In this document: piece after piece, positions 55,246 through 63,051 of the stretch
Numbering within the stretch: position 1 is the first letter of the stretch
Layout: every line of letters begins with the position of its first letter
NCBI RefSeq assembly: GCF_000317895.1
Contig: NC_019567.1
Location: 868,001 to 932,000 of the forward strand
From: Bdellovibrio bacteriovorus str. Tiberius
GTDB lineage: Bacteria > Bdellovibrionota > Bdellovibrionia > Bdellovibrionales > Bdellovibrionaceae
Direction: 5' to 3'
DNA: 64,000 bases
The notes under the pieces: generated by a model
Told to the model about the DNA's origin: nothing
What the model saw: only the letters and a program-made list of their open reading frames with translations
Databases searched by the model: none
Position numbers and translations under genes: made by a program

Positions 55246-57267
55246 ATGAGTTCATTCTCAAAAGGCGTTAGAGGTTTCATCATTGCCGGATCATTGGCAG
55301 TTTCATCTTTGGCATCGGCCCAACTGAAAGAAGGCCTTGAGTGCCGTTACCTGACAGTGATTGAACAGGGCTTCCTTGCCAACCACGTGAAGTATTCCAA
55401 CCGCGACACTGACTTGCAAAATCGTGTGATCGAGCAGTATCTGAAAAGACTGGATCCTTCCAAAATCTATCTGACTCAAGGTGATGTTGATTCCATCCGC
55501 AAGGCTGCAGGCAACGTTTTTGATAAAACCAAAAACCGTGACTGTTCATTCCTGGATGCAGCTCAGAAGATCGTTCTGGAGCGCGTGAAAGACCGCTCTG
55601 AATTTGCAAAAAAATATCTGGGCAAAGACTTCAAATTTGAATCCGCAACTGAATTCACGTTCGATCCAGAAAAGAAAACCTGGCCGAAAGATTCCGCTGA
55701 AGCGAATGAATACCTGAAAAAATACATTCAGTTCCAGATCGGGAACTACATGGCGACAGACATGAAGATGGATGAAGCCAAAAAGAACGTGATCAAAAAC
55801 TATGAGCGTGCAGTGAAAAGAACCGCTGACACAACTCAGGATGATCTGTTCTCGGGTTACCTGGATTCCTTTGCTCGTGCGTTGGATCCGCATTCCAGCT
55901 TCTTCTCTCGTGATGTGCTTGAAGATTTCGAAATCCAGATGCGTTTGTCCCTGGAAGGTATCGGCGCGACACTTTCTTCCCAGGACGGTTTCACAGTTGT
56001 TGAACAACTGGTTCCGGGTGGGGCAGCGGCTAAATCCGGTCTGATCGAACCACAGGATAAAATCGTGGCTGTCGGTCAGGAAAAAGGCCAGATGGAAAAC
56101 GTGATCGACATGGATTTGAAGGACGTTGTCAAAAAAATCCGTGGTAACAAGGGCACGAAAGTGCGCCTGACGATCTTAAGAAAATCCGGTGAAGGCAAAA
56201 AACGTTTTGATGTCACTTTGACCCGTGAAAAGGTGAATCTGGAGGACGAAGCAGCGTCCATCATCTATCAGGATCGTGAAATCAACGGTCAGAAAAAGAA
56301 AATCGGCGTTATCAATTTCCCATCCTTCTATGCGGATTCCCGTCGTGGCGGCAGATCTTCTGCGGCTGACATGAAAAAGCTGATCAAGGAAGCCAACGAA
56401 AAGAAAGTCGACGGCCTGGTGCTGGATCTTTCCAACAACGGTGGTGGTTCCCTTGAAGACGCGGTGAAAATCGCGGGTCTGTTCTTCCAGACCGGGAACG
56501 TGGTGAAGCAGTCCTCTAAAAATGAAGGCCGTGCAGAATCCGCACTTCGTGACACAGATCCAATGGTGGACTGGGCAGGTCCGCTGGTTGTATTGACCAG
56601 CCGTATTTCTGCTTCCGCTTCCGAGATCGTGTCCGGCACTTTGCAGGACTATAAACGTGCTGTCGTAATCGGTGGTGATCACACTTACGGTAAAGGCTCT
56701 GTTCAGTCTGTTCTTCCAATCCCGAACAATCTGGGAGCTATCAAGGTGACTGTGGGCATGTTCTTCGTGCCAGGTGGTAAATCCACTCAGCACCGTGGTG
56801 TGGATGCGGATATCGTGTTGCCAGGTCCATTCAGCACTGATGACATCGGTGAGAAATACATGGATTACTCTTTGCCGCCAAAAACGATTGAATCCTTCCT
56901 GTCCCCGGATGCCTACGTGAAAGAAGGCCCGGGCGCCTGGAAAGAAATCAAACCAGAGTGGTTGAAGTCCCTGCGTGAAAGATCCGGCGAACGAGTTGGC
57001 AAAAACGATGAATTCAAGAAAATCGTGGAAGAGCTGAACAAAGCCAAAGCCCGCGGTAAAGTGATCCGCGTGAGCGAAGTTCTTAAAGACAAGAACGAAA
57101 AAGAAAAGAAAGACAAAGCTAAAAAGACCGCTACCAAGGCCAAGAAAAACGAAGAGTATCTGAAGCGTCCTGATGTTCAGGAAGCTGAAAATGTTCTTCT
57201 GGATCTGATTCAGCTTGAGGACGGGAAATCCCTGGTGCCTCAGCAGAAGCAGGCTAACGCCAAGTAG
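55246..57267 (+). CDS. prc: C-terminal (tail-specific) processing protease, S41 family
   Basis: A 673-residue periplasmic S41 protease with a signal peptide (to about residue 25). An N-terminal helical domain (VKYSNRDTDLQNRVIEQYLKRLDPSKIYLTQGD) is followed by a PDZ domain (GIGATLSSQDGFTVVEQLVPGGAAAKSGLIEPQDKIVAVG) and the catalytic core: Ser in TSRISASASEIVSG (residue about 455) and Lys in TYGKGSVQ (about 483). The C-terminal DUF3340-type tail is Lys-rich. Such proteases trim envelope proteins and clear SsrA-like tails. The length matches Prc rather than short CtpA. Confidence 0.93.
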   Translation: MSSFSKGVRGFIIAGSLAVSSLASAQLKEGLECRYLTVIEQGFLANHVKYSNRDTDLQNRVIEQYLKRLDPSKIYLTQGDVDSIRKAAGNVFDKTKNRDCSFLDAAQKIVLERVKDRSEFAKKYLGKDFKFESATEFTFDPEKKTWPKDSAEANEYLKKYIQFQIGNYMATDMKMDEAKKNVIKNYERAVKRTADTTQDDLFSGYLDSFARALDPHSSFFSRDVLEDFEIQMRLSLEGIGATLSSQDGFTVVEQLVPGGAAAKSGLIEPQDKIVAVGQEKGQMENVIDMDLKDVVKKIRGNKGTKVRLTILRKSGEGKKRFDVTLTREKVNLEDEAASIIYQDREINGQKKKIGVINFPSFYADSRRGGRSSAADMKKLIKEANEKKVDGLVLDLSNNGGGSLEDAVKIAGLFFQTGNVVKQSSKNEGRAESALRDTDPMVDWAGPLVVLTSRISASASEIVSGTLQDYKRAVVIGGDHTYGKGSVQSVLPIPNNLGAIKVTVGMFFVPGGKSTQHRGVDADIVLPGPFSTDDIGEKYMDYSLPPKTIESFLSPDAYVKEGPGAWKEIKPEWLKSLRERSGERVGKNDEFKKIVEELNKAKARGKVIRVSEVLKDKNEKEKKDKAKKTATKAKKNEEYLKRPDVQEAENVLLDLIQLEDGKSLVPQQKQANAK

Positions 57268-57297
57268 TGTGATTTGAGGAAACGTTTGTTGTTGTTG

Positions 57298-57329
57298 AAG
57301 CCCGGAGCCACAGTCTCCGGGCTTTTTTT
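57298..57329 (+). terminator. Rho-independent terminator
   Basis: A 10-bp perfect stem, AAGCCCGGAG (57298-57307) with CTCCGGGCTT (57315-57324), and a T-run. Confidence 0.92.
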
Positions 57330-57443
57330 ATTTGTCTTCGCGAACAGAAGTTCGGTCCAGAAATGTATTAAGGGGTCCAGAGTGGATGACTTGTAATTGT
57401 TAAAAAAAATTGACGTACGACACACTGAAACAGTGGAGGGTTT

Positions 57444-59033
57444 ATGTCGTACGTTTTAGGTCTTCTGCTTTTGTGCGTTGTTGTGCAGGTCTCTGCAGCA
57501 TCCGCCCCATCGTCTGGCTCTGTCGAGCAATTGCGAATTTTTCTGAACCAGAACCCTTATGACAACAATGTCCGTCGCCACCTGATTGAAAAACATCTGG
57601 AGCTTCATCAAAGCGCTGAAGCTCATGCGGAGTTTGCCTCTTACAAGAAGTTGGATCCCCATCTGAACGTCGATGGTGGAAATGCCCTGCAGATGCGGCT
57701 GGATATGCTTGATGGAAAGTTTGGTGCTGCCAAACACCTAGCCTTGAAACTATTGACTGTGGCCCAGCTGGGGGCGGAAGACCGCTACCGAGCACATTTA
57801 ACTTTGGGCGATCTGGCCTATGTTCGCTTTACCTCGGGGGATGCGGTTTCCCGGTATAAAAAAGCTCTTTCGGTCAAGCCGGTCCCGGAGGCGAAACATC
57901 GACTGGCGCGTGCTTACCTTCAGAACAAAAAGTACGGCCGTGCTCAGGGTATACTGAGCGACCTGATCGGAGTGGGCTACGCCTCGGATCCGGTTCGTTA
58001 CGATTATCTGCAAAGTTTGCTGGAGGCCGGACAGAACCAGGCCGCAGCCCTGCGTTTGAGTCAATGGTACAGCGAAGAGCCGGGCAATCCATGGATTGTG
58101 ACAGCCCATGCGCGTTTTTTACTAAGTCTGGGACAGGACGAATCGGCGCGTATGATACTTCAGCAGTATGCTGAGATCTATCAACCAACTACGGAAATCG
58201 ATGAGCTGTTGCGAAGCACTCAGCCGCAGCGTACCCCAACGGCGGAGACCGTCATGGTGCTTGGGCTGCGCCCGGAGATGCCGGTCAATGCAGGAGTGGT
58301 GCGGGGAGCTGCCTCTGCCGGAGAGGTCGCGGGGAAGCAGGCAATGGAATCGTCTTTGAGCCCGCGACACTGGCAGATGCAGGCCGTGGCTGGATATCAG
58401 ATGATTAATAACCGGGTGGAAGGGCAGGGATTTAATTCCCTGCTAAGTCCCGAGGCGGGTTACGTTGCAGGTGTTGCCGCCGAAACTGACAATGAAGGTT
58501 CCGCCTATTCCTTTGTGGGCAGGGCCCGCACGTCTTGGCAAACCTATAAAATTCCTTCTGGGCTTCAGCAGAATGGAGACCGGTCTCAGGCATTTGATAT
58601 TGCCGGAGGACTGCAGACTCTGTTGGCAGCGGACTGGCAGTTGCAAATGCAGCTTAACTATCGTTCACGCAGTGGCATTGAGTCGGCGACCAACACTTAT
58701 GTGTCGGGTTATCAGATGCTGGGTGTGCAGGCGGGAGTTTCAAAAACCTGGCAGCTTCGTTTTCCGTGGAGCTTTGAAGTCCACGCTGATCTGACTTTGC
58801 CCGTGTACTTTACCGAGTCCACGGCCGAATCAGGTCAGTTGCGGTTTGGCTATTTTTCAAGCCTGCAGGCACTGGCGCAGTATCCGCTGCGTGAAGGACT
58901 GGCCTTTCGCGCAGGTTTGGGTCTTGTGCGCAACGAGATTCAGTTCAATGGCAATGGGTCCCGCGGTGTGACCGATGCCACAGATTCCGAAGAAGGTTTG
59001 ATGATTCCAGTCAGTCTTACGTGGGTTTATTAG
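57444..59033 (+). CDS. TPR protein with C-terminal outer-membrane beta-barrel (Slam-like architecture)
   Basis: A 529-residue exported protein (signal peptide to about residue 20). Residues about 25-240 are helical tandem repeats of TPR type (LRIFLNQNPYDNNVRRHLIEKHLELHQSAEAHAEF; AKHRLARAYLQNKKYGRAQGIL; FLLSLGQDESARMILQQYAEIY). From about residue 305, alternating strands begin (HWQMQAVAGYQM; WQLQMQLNYRSRSG; FRAGLGLVRNEIQF) and the protein ends in VSLTWVY, an outer-membrane-type C-terminus. This TPR-plus-barrel order is that of Slam translocons. It is followed 9 bases later by a large lipoprotein gene. Confidence 0.7.
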   Translation: MSYVLGLLLLCVVVQVSAASAPSSGSVEQLRIFLNQNPYDNNVRRHLIEKHLELHQSAEAHAEFASYKKLDPHLNVDGGNALQMRLDMLDGKFGAAKHLALKLLTVAQLGAEDRYRAHLTLGDLAYVRFTSGDAVSRYKKALSVKPVPEAKHRLARAYLQNKKYGRAQGILSDLIGVGYASDPVRYDYLQSLLEAGQNQAAALRLSQWYSEEPGNPWIVTAHARFLLSLGQDESARMILQQYAEIYQPTTEIDELLRSTQPQRTPTAETVMVLGLRPEMPVNAGVVRGAASAGEVAGKQAMESSLSPRHWQMQAVAGYQMINNRVEGQGFNSLLSPEAGYVAGVAAETDNEGSAYSFVGRARTSWQTYKIPSGLQQNGDRSQAFDIAGGLQTLLAADWQLQMQLNYRSRSGIESATNTYVSGYQMLGVQAGVSKTWQLRFPWSFEVHADLTLPVYFTESTAESGQLRFGYFSSLQALAQYPLREGLAFRAGLGLVRNEIQFNGNGSRGVTDATDSEEGLMIPVSLTWVY

Positions 59034-59042
59034 GGGGACGTT

Positions 59043-61772
59043 GTGTTGAAATATGTTTTGATGGCCTGTCTTTTTCTGAGTGCCTGCAATTTTTCTGAAG
59101 AGTCTAAAGTCACAGGAAACACTCCGCAAAGCACTCCGGAGACTGATCCTGCGCCAGGAAGTTCCGCGCCGTCTTGGGTGGATGTGCGTGCGTTGGTATC
59201 AACAGGTGAAAACCTCAGCTTCAACAATCAAACCGGCGGGCCCCACGATCTGGCTTTGAACCCGTTAACGGGGCAACCGGGTGTGGCATATTATGATAAG
59301 TCCGCGACGGCGGGGGGCAGTGGTGCAACCCCGACGATAGGCGCACTGAAGTACGCCTGGATGGATGAGTTTGGCACCTGGAATGTGGAAGTCGTCGATC
59401 TCAACTATGGAACAGCCCTCTGCGGAAATTTGAATTCAGTTTGCGTTGGTGCGCCGAACTCGGCTACCGCCGGGCAGTTGAATCAGGGAAAAATTCTGCG
59501 GGTGGCATTTAAGTCCGACGGCAACCCCGTCATCGCCTATGTATATGGATCAAGCCAGAACACCACTTTGCTTGCCGGAAGCGGGACCAAGGACATTCGA
59601 TTTGCCGAGCGCAGTTCCAGTGGTGTTTGGTCGGTGACAACAGCTTTTCAAGCCCCGGTCAGTGCGGCACCCACAAATGTGGCTGTGGCCACCATTGATC
59701 CGATGAAGGCACTTCGCCTGGTGCTGGACAGCGAGGACCGGCCTCACATCACTTTTTCATTCTTCACTCAGACCTCCACAAACAGCCAGGTGAAATATCT
59801 TTTCCGTTCCAGCACGGGTGTGTGGTCTTCAATGAACGTGGCGCCACTGGTGTCGCTGGCGGGGACCATCACGGCGGCCAATCAGGCCGGCATCAGTTCA
59901 GGGCTGGCGTTGTGCCCGGTGAACGGAGCGCCGATCCTGGGTTTCACCACGACAACGGGGGCGGCAGGGACTTTGAACAACCCTTCAGTGGCAAGATGCA
60001 CGGGATTGGATGCGGATGGAAAATGTCAGGCCTTTGAAGTCGTGAATCTTTTGCGGGGGTGTGCGGGCAGCACTACTTGTATTTCCGGTTTGGTGAATAC
60101 GAATCATAACGGTGGAACACATCTGGATTTGAAAGTCGAGCCCACCACCCATCGTGCGGTGTTGGCATTTTATTCTGTGGGCAATCCGAACACCACAGGC
60201 CTGCATATTCGCAGCCCCGTGGCCTGCGATGTGGCTCAGGATGGGGCCACCAACTCTTGGGGGCCGGCGACCACCATTGCGGCGGCTTCCACAGGGGCTT
60301 CCGGAATCTCTTTGGCTATTAAAGGTGTGACAGACTATCTGGTTTCTGCCGGAGTGGCGACCACGTCGGTAGCCATGAGCAAATTCAACGGCACAGCCTG
60401 GTTTGCGGCGAATCACGGGATTGAAACAACGACGGTCGCGCAAGAAGGGGTGTCACTTGCTTATGATGCTGCCAGCGACACAGCTTTCACCAGCTATGCC
60501 CAGCTTCCCGCCGCGGCAGGTGGCGCTGTCGGCAATGACCTGAAGGTCGCGCAGATTGATCCGGATGACCTGGTGACAGGGGGAGCCGCAGGAAGCTTTG
60601 TAATTTCTGTGGTCGACAACCGTGGCAATGTGTTTCCGAACACGGCCTCTTTCCCGGTGATCAGTGCCGCCAAGGCACCGGATGGCAGAGTCGGCTATGC
60701 ATACTATTTTTATGACAACAACAACACTCACGCCAGTTCCAAACTTTATTTCGGAACACGCGGGGGCACATTTGTAGAGCCGTATTTCTCTGAAAAATTT
60801 GTGACCAGCCATCAACAAAGCGCTTCGGCCACGGCGGCGGTGGGAAATATGCCGTCATTGGCCTTCGACAGTAACAGCAATCCGATGATTGCCGCCTACA
60901 ATGGTGTGGCGACTGAGCAGAATCTGATTCTGGCCAGATCCAGTGATCGAGGTGTGAGTTTTACAATCACGGTCGTGGATGATTCCGTAGTCAACGTCGG
61001 TCAGTACGCAAGTGTCGCCCTGAGTGGTGATGCCATCGGAATCGCGTATTATGATGTCACCAACACGGCCTTGCGTTTTGCCAGATGGACAAAACAAAAA
61101 GGCTGGAAAAGATTTGTCGTGGACGGCGCCGCGGGAGCGGGCTCTTGCGGTAACGCCACTGCGGATGCGGGGAAATTTGCGAAGCTCCAGTTTACGAGTT
61201 CTGGACAGCCTGCGATTGCCTATCAGTACGACACAGGGGTGCGAGTGGCTTTTGCCAGTGAATCGCTAAGTTCCGCCAGCTATGTGTGGAATTGTGTGGC
61301 GATTGAAAATTCCGGATCCACTTTGGGTGCGGGAATTGATTTCAAACTGGATGCTTTGAACAGGCCCTTTGCGGCTTATGTGGATACAACGGCGGGTTCA
61401 GTTCGCTATGCAAGTTGTGCTTCGGCCGTTGCAACATGTTTGACCACCGGGACTAGTGCGTTCACGGCCGGTGTCGTGGAGGTGACTGGGGTGACCTCTT
61501 TGTTGGGTGAGTCTGCGCCGACGTTGGGGGTAGGCAGTGATGGAGCCAAATACGTGGCCTTCCATAGCTCAGTCAGTAAGGCCTTGCGTCTGGGGACCCT
61601 GGCTGCGGCAGGCGGCAGTTTTGTCTTTGAAAGCATTGAACAATCAGTCCTGCCGGCGCCCTCATTTGTGGGGCAGTACGGGGCGCTTTTGATTAATTCC
61701 TACGACCGCCCGACGGTCTTTTATCGCAGCTCAGAAAACTGGCTGCGCTACTATTCCCGCGAGCAGGAATAG
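59043..61772 (+). CDS. 909-residue lipoprotein with propeller-type repeats
   Basis: A lipoprotein: GTG start with AGGGGGA site, lipobox LSAC (Cys15), then a Thr/Pro/Ser-rich linker of about 25 residues. The body contains at least ten copies of a strand motif of the form (F/L)xSxGxPxIAY: KSDGNPVIAYVY, DSEDRPHITF, DSNSNPMIAAY, TSSGQPAIAYQY, DALNRPFAAYV, NSYDRPTVFYR. This spacing suggests one or two beta-propellers. Residue +2 is Asn, favouring outer-membrane sorting. The function is unknown; a surface or adhesive role is inferred from its barrel partner upstream. Confidence 0.72.
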   Translation: MLKYVLMACLFLSACNFSEESKVTGNTPQSTPETDPAPGSSAPSWVDVRALVSTGENLSFNNQTGGPHDLALNPLTGQPGVAYYDKSATAGGSGATPTIGALKYAWMDEFGTWNVEVVDLNYGTALCGNLNSVCVGAPNSATAGQLNQGKILRVAFKSDGNPVIAYVYGSSQNTTLLAGSGTKDIRFAERSSSGVWSVTTAFQAPVSAAPTNVAVATIDPMKALRLVLDSEDRPHITFSFFTQTSTNSQVKYLFRSSTGVWSSMNVAPLVSLAGTITAANQAGISSGLALCPVNGAPILGFTTTTGAAGTLNNPSVARCTGLDADGKCQAFEVVNLLRGCAGSTTCISGLVNTNHNGGTHLDLKVEPTTHRAVLAFYSVGNPNTTGLHIRSPVACDVAQDGATNSWGPATTIAAASTGASGISLAIKGVTDYLVSAGVATTSVAMSKFNGTAWFAANHGIETTTVAQEGVSLAYDAASDTAFTSYAQLPAAAGGAVGNDLKVAQIDPDDLVTGGAAGSFVISVVDNRGNVFPNTASFPVISAAKAPDGRVGYAYYFYDNNNTHASSKLYFGTRGGTFVEPYFSEKFVTSHQQSASATAAVGNMPSLAFDSNSNPMIAAYNGVATEQNLILARSSDRGVSFTITVVDDSVVNVGQYASVALSGDAIGIAYYDVTNTALRFARWTKQKGWKRFVVDGAAGAGSCGNATADAGKFAKLQFTSSGQPAIAYQYDTGVRVAFASESLSSASYVWNCVAIENSGSTLGAGIDFKLDALNRPFAAYVDTTAGSVRYASCASAVATCLTTGTSAFTAGVVEVTGVTSLLGESAPTLGVGSDGAKYVAFHSSVSKALRLGTLAAAGGSFVFESIEQSVLPAPSFVGQYGALLINSYDRPTVFYRSSENWLRYYSREQE

Positions 61773-61789
61773 CCAACTGCCTAAAGAGG

Positions 61790-61806
61790 GGGCACATTGT
61801 GTGCCC
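61790..61806 (+). terminator. hairpin after the lipoprotein gene
   Basis: GGGCACA (61790-61796) pairs with TGTGCCC (61800-61806) around TTG; followed by TTGAGG, so a weak terminator at best. Confidence 0.5.
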
Positions 61807-61866
61807 TTGAGGACTTAAACCCCTTTAAAATTGATTTGAAGAGACTTCTCACCGTGGCAAATGGGC

Positions 61867-61896
61867 GTGACAAAAGCCTCTCTTTTCGCTTAGATA
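61867..61896 (+). promoter_or_regulatory. promoter for the E1 alpha/beta genes
   Basis: GTGACA (61867-61872), 18 bases, TAGATA (61891-61896), about 25 bases before the E1 alpha start. Confidence 0.45.
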
Positions 61897-61920
61897 GACG
61901 CGAATATGGAGGCCCTGAAA

Positions 61921-63051
61921 ATGGCTAAAAAGACCACTGTGAAAGCAGGGGGTAAGGCGGCTGCTGGTAAGACTACCAAGAAGGCTGCAAAACCTGCTGC
62001 AAAGTCCACTGTGAAAGCTTCTAAAAAAGCGACTGCTCCTGCAAAAAAGAAGCAGAGCTTTGGTGGATTGTCTGAAGAAATTTTGCTTCGCATGCATAAC
62101 CTGATGGTTAAATCCCGCGTGCTTGAAGAACGTCTGATCAAAATTTATAAAGCCGGTGAGGCTTACTTCTGGATTGGTGGACCTGGTGAGGAAGCCTGGG
62201 GTGTTGCCTTGGGTATGCTGGCGCGCAAAGGCTCTGGCCCAGAGAACGACTGGTTGCACCTGCACTATCGCTGTACTCCGACGATGGTGGCTTTGGGCAT
62301 GGACATGATTGATTCCATCCGCTTGATGATGAACCGTGCGACGGATCCATCCACAGGTGGTCGTAACTTCTCCAGCCACTATTGCTTCCCGCAGTGGAAC
62401 GTGGCTCCGGTGACGTCTCCTTTGGAAGTTCAATATCCGATCGCGTGTGGTACGGCTCACGTGCAAAAGCGTGCGGGTAAAGGTGCGATCTCTATCGTGA
62501 CTGGTGGTGACGCTGGGACTGCTGAAGGTGACTTCGCATCCTGCTTGATTCTTGCCTCCCGTAAGGGCCAGGAACTTCCGATGCTGATCACTGTTCAGAA
62601 CAACGGCTACGGTATTTCGACTCCGTATGAAGGTCAGCACGGTGAAACGAACATCGCGGATCGCGCTGCTGCGTTCAACATCCGTTCCCGTGTGATCAAC
62701 GGCAATGACCCGATTGAAACTTATCTGGCTCTGAAAGAAGAGATGGAATACATCCGTAAAACCGGCAAACCATCCTTCATCGAAGCGAAGGTGACTCGTT
62801 TGTACGGTCACTCTTCCGCGGACGGCGCCAATAAAAAACCACACTTGTTTGACCCGGTTCTGACTTTCGAAAAAAACCTGATCGATGCTGGCATTCTGGA
62901 TCCGAAGGCTGCGAAGAAGATCTGGGAAGACTATGAAGCCGAAGGCGTCAACGCCCAGGAACAAGCCCGCCAGGAACCGGTGCCGACTCCGGAATCTGTT
63001 TGGGATCATGTTTACGTTAACAGCGAAAATGCAGATTGGAGAAAATTCTAA
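61921..63051 (+). CDS. 2-oxoacid dehydrogenase E1 component, alpha subunit, with Lys/Ala-rich N-terminal arm
   Basis: A 376-residue E1 alpha, TPP-dependent, of a pyruvate or branched-chain 2-oxoacid dehydrogenase. The TPP and Mg site is GGDAGTAEGDFASCLILASRKG with NNGYGISTPYEGQ, closer to the branched-chain type. Residues 1-45 are an extra arm of the KKAAKPAAKSTVKASKK type, not part of the usual fold. The ATG at 61921 has GGAGG eight bases upstream. Its stop overlaps the E1 beta start (TAATG), coupling both subunits. Confidence 0.9.
   Translation: MAKKTTVKAGGKAAAGKTTKKAAKPAAKSTVKASKKATAPAKKKQSFGGLSEEILLRMHNLMVKSRVLEERLIKIYKAGEAYFWIGGPGEEAWGVALGMLARKGSGPENDWLHLHYRCTPTMVALGMDMIDSIRLMMNRATDPSTGGRNFSSHYCFPQWNVAPVTSPLEVQYPIACGTAHVQKRAGKGAISIVTGGDAGTAEGDFASCLILASRKGQELPMLITVQNNGYGISTPYEGQHGETNIADRAAAFNIRSRVINGNDPIETYLALKEEMEYIRKTGKPSFIEAKVTRLYGHSSADGANKKPHLFDPVLTFEKNLIDAGILDPKAAKKIWEDYEAEGVNAQEQARQEPVPTPESVWDHVYVNSENADWRKF

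Follow-up and report, generated by a model that had tools for sequence, protein, structure and literature searches.

We have found in Bdellovibrio bacteriovorus str. Tiberius a pair of adjacent genes that may be the form taken in this species by an uncharacterised outer membrane module of the Bdellovibrionota, made of a TPR scaffold, a barrel of around ten strands and a double-propeller lipoprotein, in which the barrel would hold the propeller outside the cell by means of a tether. We give this reading about even odds (a probability near 0.5). The window analyzed is a stretch of 64,000 nucleotides (contig NC_019567.1, positions 868,001 to 932,000 of the forward strand), and the features discussed here are listed with coordinates counted from its first letter.

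57297..57325, + strand: terminator-like hairpin of 11 pairs with a T-rich tail, between the upstream S41 protease gene and the pair.
57335..61859, no strand assigned: 4.5-kb segment with both genes, found in G000 and G003; G006 lacks it as a whole.
57444..59033, + strand: fusion protein of TPR and outer membrane barrel, 529 aa, ATG start, signal peptide at about residues 1-19.
57528..58217, + strand: TPR part, residues 29-258 (PF14559 TPR_19, helix pairs in the model), presumably periplasmic.
58230..58361, + strand: linker, residues 263-306, modelled at low confidence (pLDDT < 50).
58368..59033, + strand: C-terminal barrel, residues 309-529, around ten strands according to the model and the relatives, ending in Y.
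59043..61772, + strand: lipoprotein gene, 909 aa, GTG start, lipobox LSAC with the cysteine at residue 15.
59085..59177, + strand: lipidated cysteine followed by a tether with a high S, T, P and G content, residues 15-45, read from the sequence (pLDDT < 50 over residues 1-57).
59109..59120, + strand: lipid-proximal motif V-T-G-N, residues 23-26, identified by comparison among relatives.
59214..61757, + strand: residues 58-905, predicted to form a multi-bladed propeller, with 54 modelled strands in some 13-14 four-stranded blades.

Both open reading frames are exactly where the original prediction had placed them, on one strand and 9 nt apart, the second coding for a lipoprotein of 909 residues. 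A stretch resembling a ribosome-binding site (AGGGGGA) lies ahead of its GTG start. The hairpin upstream of the pair was the strongest of the terminator-like sites of the region, which were not more numerous than in shuffled sequences. The pair has a GC content of 54-55%, versus 48-51% in the neighboring genes and 50% over the window, with an ordinary third-position GC, and we found in the GC content no firm sign of a recent foreign origin. A search of the open-access literature through the locus tags (inferred from TopA = Bd0964) retrieved nothing on the pair.

The TPR-like N-terminal half that had been proposed for the first protein is confirmed by a match to TPR_19 (E 7.1e-15, above the 25-bit cut-off of the Pfam search) and by the helix pairs that AlphaFold2 placed over approximately residues 41-258. 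The C-terminal domain of about 225 residues, predicted to be built of beta strands and to end in an aromatic residue, was modelled with nine strands and two poorly modelled gaps and does end in Y; reading the sequence by eye suggests about ten strands, in agreement with the earlier estimate, a count that is approximate given the mean pLDDT of 56. Structure prediction, which had been suggested as a check, thus does return a beta-strand barrel domain at the C-terminus, at a modest pLDDT, and the models of both proteins were built from four-row alignments (the window plus related loci). A C-terminal F or Y is found in 19 of 20 members of the barrel family. The free-standing barrel homologue of another genus (G065) scores 30.6 bits with PF13505 (OMP_b-brl), against a curated cut-off of 28.7 that the window's own barrel domain does not reach. 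Fold searches with the TPR-barrel protein returned only low TM-scores (FadL, BcsC, OprG, OmpA, TPR proteins), which were not used for assignment, and sequence-profile searches of the PDB gave nothing meaningful for either the barrel or the lipoprotein family.

The body of the lipoprotein is all-beta in its model (pLDDT 60), and its best fold matches in the PDB were 7-bladed propellers (BACINT_00347, BT3686), sialidases and multi-propeller proteins such as DDB1. The earlier guess of a propeller is in this way borne out, and the protein probably consists of two 7-bladed propellers, as far as the model goes. No Pfam domain was matched in it. The resemblance to 7-bladed glycoside hydrolases would make glycans reasonable ligands to consider first. 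It also brings to mind an uptake pair in which the lipoprotein would be a capture lid on a small channel, as BtuG on BtuB or SusD on SusC, since BtuG of Bacteroides is a 7-bladed propeller surface lipoprotein that is held on, and caps, a barrel (PMC10404256). We regard this as improbable. BtuB is a TonB-dependent receptor, while here the barrel has around ten strands, the propeller is probably double, and neither the plug nor the barrel of such receptors was matched; the window barrel, of about 225 aa, falls short of half the strand number of the 22-stranded receptor barrel. Besides, no transporter or enzyme genes were conserved nearby in the neighborhoods fetched.

We searched for the module with separate profiles for the barrel (A3, A6) and the lipoprotein (A4, A11) in 144 genomes of the class and 369 of the phylum. 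With one sequence as query, the barrel protein had been found in two genomes only, G003 being the second one with both proteins at 99%, plus weak matches to residues 313-527 in other genera. These weak matches turned out to be free-standing barrels of about 250 aa with a signal peptide. A TPR gene lies before them, and a relative of the window's lipoprotein comes next. The order TPR, barrel, lipoprotein is common to divergent families. Over the 369 genomes, barrel and lipoprotein genes are adjacent, barrel first and on the same strand, at 19 distinct loci of 17 species, not counting the near-identical second strain G003 (the window, G033, G036, G045, G058, G065, G069, G206, G228, G237, G258, G319, G344, G347, G354 and two copies each in G076 and G303, in which the whole module is doubled). 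The distance from the barrel stop to the likeliest lipoprotein start ranges from -13 to +14 nt, with several possible start codons at a few loci. An adjacency that recurs at 19 divergent loci is beyond chance, and the claim that the genes form a real functional pair holds; the pair is also an old one. The trees of barrel and lipoprotein showed no supported conflict, and the two proteins very probably form a complex. In two genomes (G027, G035) the lipoprotein is present without an adjoining barrel, which may therefore be dispensable or located elsewhere in them. Searches beyond the Bdellovibrionota consisted of two pattern scans of genome contigs: that with the TPR-barrel protein found no relative, and that with the lipoprotein alignment only the G069 and G076 loci again. 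Plasmids and phages gave no match to the pair.

Several other arrangements were seen around these loci. In G278 an unrelated barrel-like protein of 244 aa (L089:5214-5945) directly precedes the lipoprotein, an apparent non-orthologous replacement, and in G063 the usual place of the barrel is taken by an OMP-like protein of about 200 aa. The latter protein is of a family of OMP-like proteins of about 200 aa found near the module in three genomes (L014:10452-11072, L017:13461-14036, L044:8373-8954). Five genomes have beside the module a smaller lipoprotein family, of about 310-390 aa where complete (L072:9262-10314, L016:10264-11310, L075:3388-4323, L044:9683-10453, L046:8236-9405), with a weak NHL/lactonase propeller score in one member and its own OMP of about 200 aa adjoining in some. 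Downstream of the intact lipoprotein gene, G354 carries a second, apparently frame-broken copy (L073:4899-7627). A protein of about 530-590 aa whose C-terminal part has a weak similarity to the barrel family (E 1e-12 to 1e-4; for example L052:7045-8637) is widespread in the order; an OMP family of about 540 aa weakly matched by the barrel profile was set aside as a different protein.

Within the predatory genus the pair was found in 2 of 24 genomes, while the upstream S41 protease gene is present in all 24 (in G018 and G020 as fragments on broken contigs only). In a close relative, G006, some 120 bp replace positions 57335..61859, the flanks match at 57001-57334 (91%) and 61860-62200 (97%) with no homology between them, and the flanking proteins are 98.7% identical to those of the window. 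Such a clean empty site shows that the two genes were gained or lost together. As judged from its distribution, the module is an accessory trait that is not needed for predation. The suggestion that the lipoprotein serves in prey contact is not supported by a pair found in so few genomes of the genus and missing from a relative as close as G006.

TPR and barrel are in one chain in the window and in G003 only. Elsewhere a separate TPR gene lies immediately 5' of the barrel (G033, G036, G045, G058, G065, G206, G228, G237, G258, both copies of G303 and G354, where it is cut by the contig end) or one gene further upstream, behind a LysM-like gene recognised by eye only (G319, G344, G347); neither copy in G076 adjoins a dedicated TPR gene, and in G069 the contig ends at the module. 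A local fusion of proteins coded by separate genes in relatives indicates, following the Rosetta-stone argument, that TPR and barrel work together. The TPR protein carries a C-terminal, peptidoglycan-binding LysM in G206, G228, G237, G258, both copies of G303 and G141. The last genome is peculiar in having a TPR-LysM protein, the barrel, another OMP and a lipoprotein of 163 aa without the giant propeller (L051:6059-9283), and the TPR-LysM and barrel platform may serve other cargo there.

A TPR part followed by a barrel is also the layout of polysaccharide exporters of the BcsC/PgaA kind. BcsC did come up as a weak fold match, and PgaA/BcsC models gave weak scores with the TPR regions of the relatives. 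Even so, that the pair is such an exporter is hardly credible: BcsC and PgaA have barrels of 16 strands, for which the window barrel is too small, no synthase or glycosyltransferase was conserved beside the module in the neighborhoods fetched, and the partner that recurs is a propeller lipoprotein. The Glt gliding complex of Myxococcus similarly combines TPR proteins, small outer membrane proteins and outer membrane lipoproteins in one envelope machine, and homologous glt loci exist in Bdellovibrio (PMC3169522). We discarded it, as the window proteins matched no Glt equivalog and the barrel profile found only itself in its own genome. The score of the G141 TPR protein with GltE was far below the cut-off.

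The same parts could be assembled facing inward. Propeller lipoprotein, TPR and barrel are also the part list of BAM, in which BamB is a propeller and BamD a TPR protein, and the LysM of the TPR partner suggests a periplasmic position. The propeller would then be a periplasmic scaffold in the manner of BamB and BamD, or would take part in envelope sensing like RcsF with OmpA. But the barrel is not of the Omp85/BAM type, with no Pfam match to POTRA or to the Omp85 barrel in the window protein or its relatives, and the module is accessory and cleanly lost in a close relative. The propeller itself, which belongs to a fast-diverging family (20-43% identity) and hangs on a low-complexity tether that follows the cysteine in the paired lipoproteins, also fits poorly with such a role. 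An inward-facing complex is to our mind a real possibility, if a rather unlikely one, and we are somewhat inclined to place the propeller on the outside.

The original prediction had read the pair as a Slam-like system (type XI secretion), though a divergent one, with the barrel as translocon and the lipoprotein as its substrate. The likeness to Slam and NilB (PF04575; PMC8406197, PMC5449769) is in the TPR, the outer membrane barrel, the neighboring lipoprotein gene and the proposed surface display. In the window a single chain with TPR and barrel does adjoin a lipobox protein with a long tether, and TPR_Slam (PF24575) gave weak scores, 15.7 bits for the window protein and at most 30.2 for its relatives, under the cut-off of 35.2. 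The HMM search against PF04575 that had been suggested returned no match at E values up to 10 in the window protein and none in its own genome. The search did work as a positive control, with a match above cut-off in one of the 369 Bdellovibrionota genomes, G105 (L105, G105:C277:8887-9744), which is without the barrel-lipoprotein module. The Slam barrel has 14 strands (PMC8406197), while the window barrel has around ten in about 225 residues, at low model confidence and in a length that makes 14 unlikely, and belongs to a different family. The single-chain layout found in the window and G003 is a local resemblance, since TPR and barrel are separate genes in the relatives, where the TPR is split off, often with LysM, or absent. 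Finally, an 8-stranded barrel domain marks the Slam-dependent lipoproteins (PMC5449769), and the window lipoprotein has the lipobox and a propeller fold but no such TbpB-like domain. A membership in Slam/T11SS is therefore not upheld and a divergent Slam exporter has little probability; the barrel-propeller pair is probably an undescribed surface-holding machine built unlike the Slam exporters.

We have counted the pattern [VILA][STAE][GN][VILAGN], with [VIL]-[ST]-[GN]-[VIL] as its core form, at 14 residues or less from the lipidated cysteine in 15 of 19 lipoproteins paired with an A6-type barrel (VTGN in the window; VSNL, ISGV, VSGV or LEGV in others) and in none of six without it (G027, G035, G063, G278, G327, G356). 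Shuffling the same residues gave a mean of 1.2 and a maximum of 5 over 2000 runs, figures that are optimistic because the motif was defined post hoc and the rows are mutually related, and the control lipoprotein set had only nine proteins. That this motif goes with one barrel family is, at the level of sequence, a strong lead and not a result; such a specificity fits G063 and G278 having a different barrel-like gene at the same upstream place. A comparable case is the LES of Bacteroidetes, a short motif right after the lipidated cysteine that is linked to surface location (PMC5080379). It reads C-X-K-(D/E)2, while here the motif is hydrophobic-[ST]-[GN]-hydrophobic and tied to one barrel family.

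Barrel-assisted surface display of the lipoprotein is thus a reasonable reading. What the sequences show directly is the presence of three parts in a conserved, tightly coupled order, the fusion, the duplication and the presence or loss as a unit, and a motif tied to the barrel family. In the proposed module the barrel would be the dedicated outer membrane partner of the lipoprotein, docking the flexible tether with its motif or passing it through the lumen, and would thereby keep the propeller on the outer face of the outer membrane, where its role would be in binding or catalysis. Below, the periplasmic TPR/LysM part would either fix the barrel on the cell wall or deliver the lipoprotein to the barrel; whether it ties the complex to peptidoglycan we consider evenly balanced. 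The lumen of 10-strand barrels is normally narrow or filled, which makes threading of the tether uncertain, and export of so large a protein would need BAM-like help, or else docking would take its place. That the barrel is needed for the outward position of the propeller and reads the motif is doubtful, if conceivable. Still less likely, in our opinion, is a separate display route of the Bdellovibrionota that would rely neither on Slam or LES nor on TonB receptors and in which a small barrel would recognise [VIL]-[ST]-[GN]-[VIL] and pass or flip the tether, with the giant propeller outside and the peptidoglycan-bound TPR/LysM below.

To our knowledge, the routes of lipoproteins to the surface are understood for few systems only: Slam, RcsF/OMP and partly the Bacteroidetes LES. 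RcsF with OmpA and other OMPs, BtuG on BtuB and LES are precedents for separate steps of the proposed mechanism (PMC4942254, PMC10404256, PMC5080379). In Escherichia coli the N-terminal part of RcsF goes with an OMP barrel (PMC4942254). RcsF uses general OMPs, however, and has no dedicated neighbor gene, propeller or TPR/LysM partner. Two protein families that lack a specific Pfam or NCBIfam model are here placed in a defined operon and given a role that can be tested. The module has two or three genes and a single barrel for each cargo. With its candidate signal motif, and with the empty site that a near-identical genome offers naturally, it makes lipoprotein display directly testable in a predatory bacterium.
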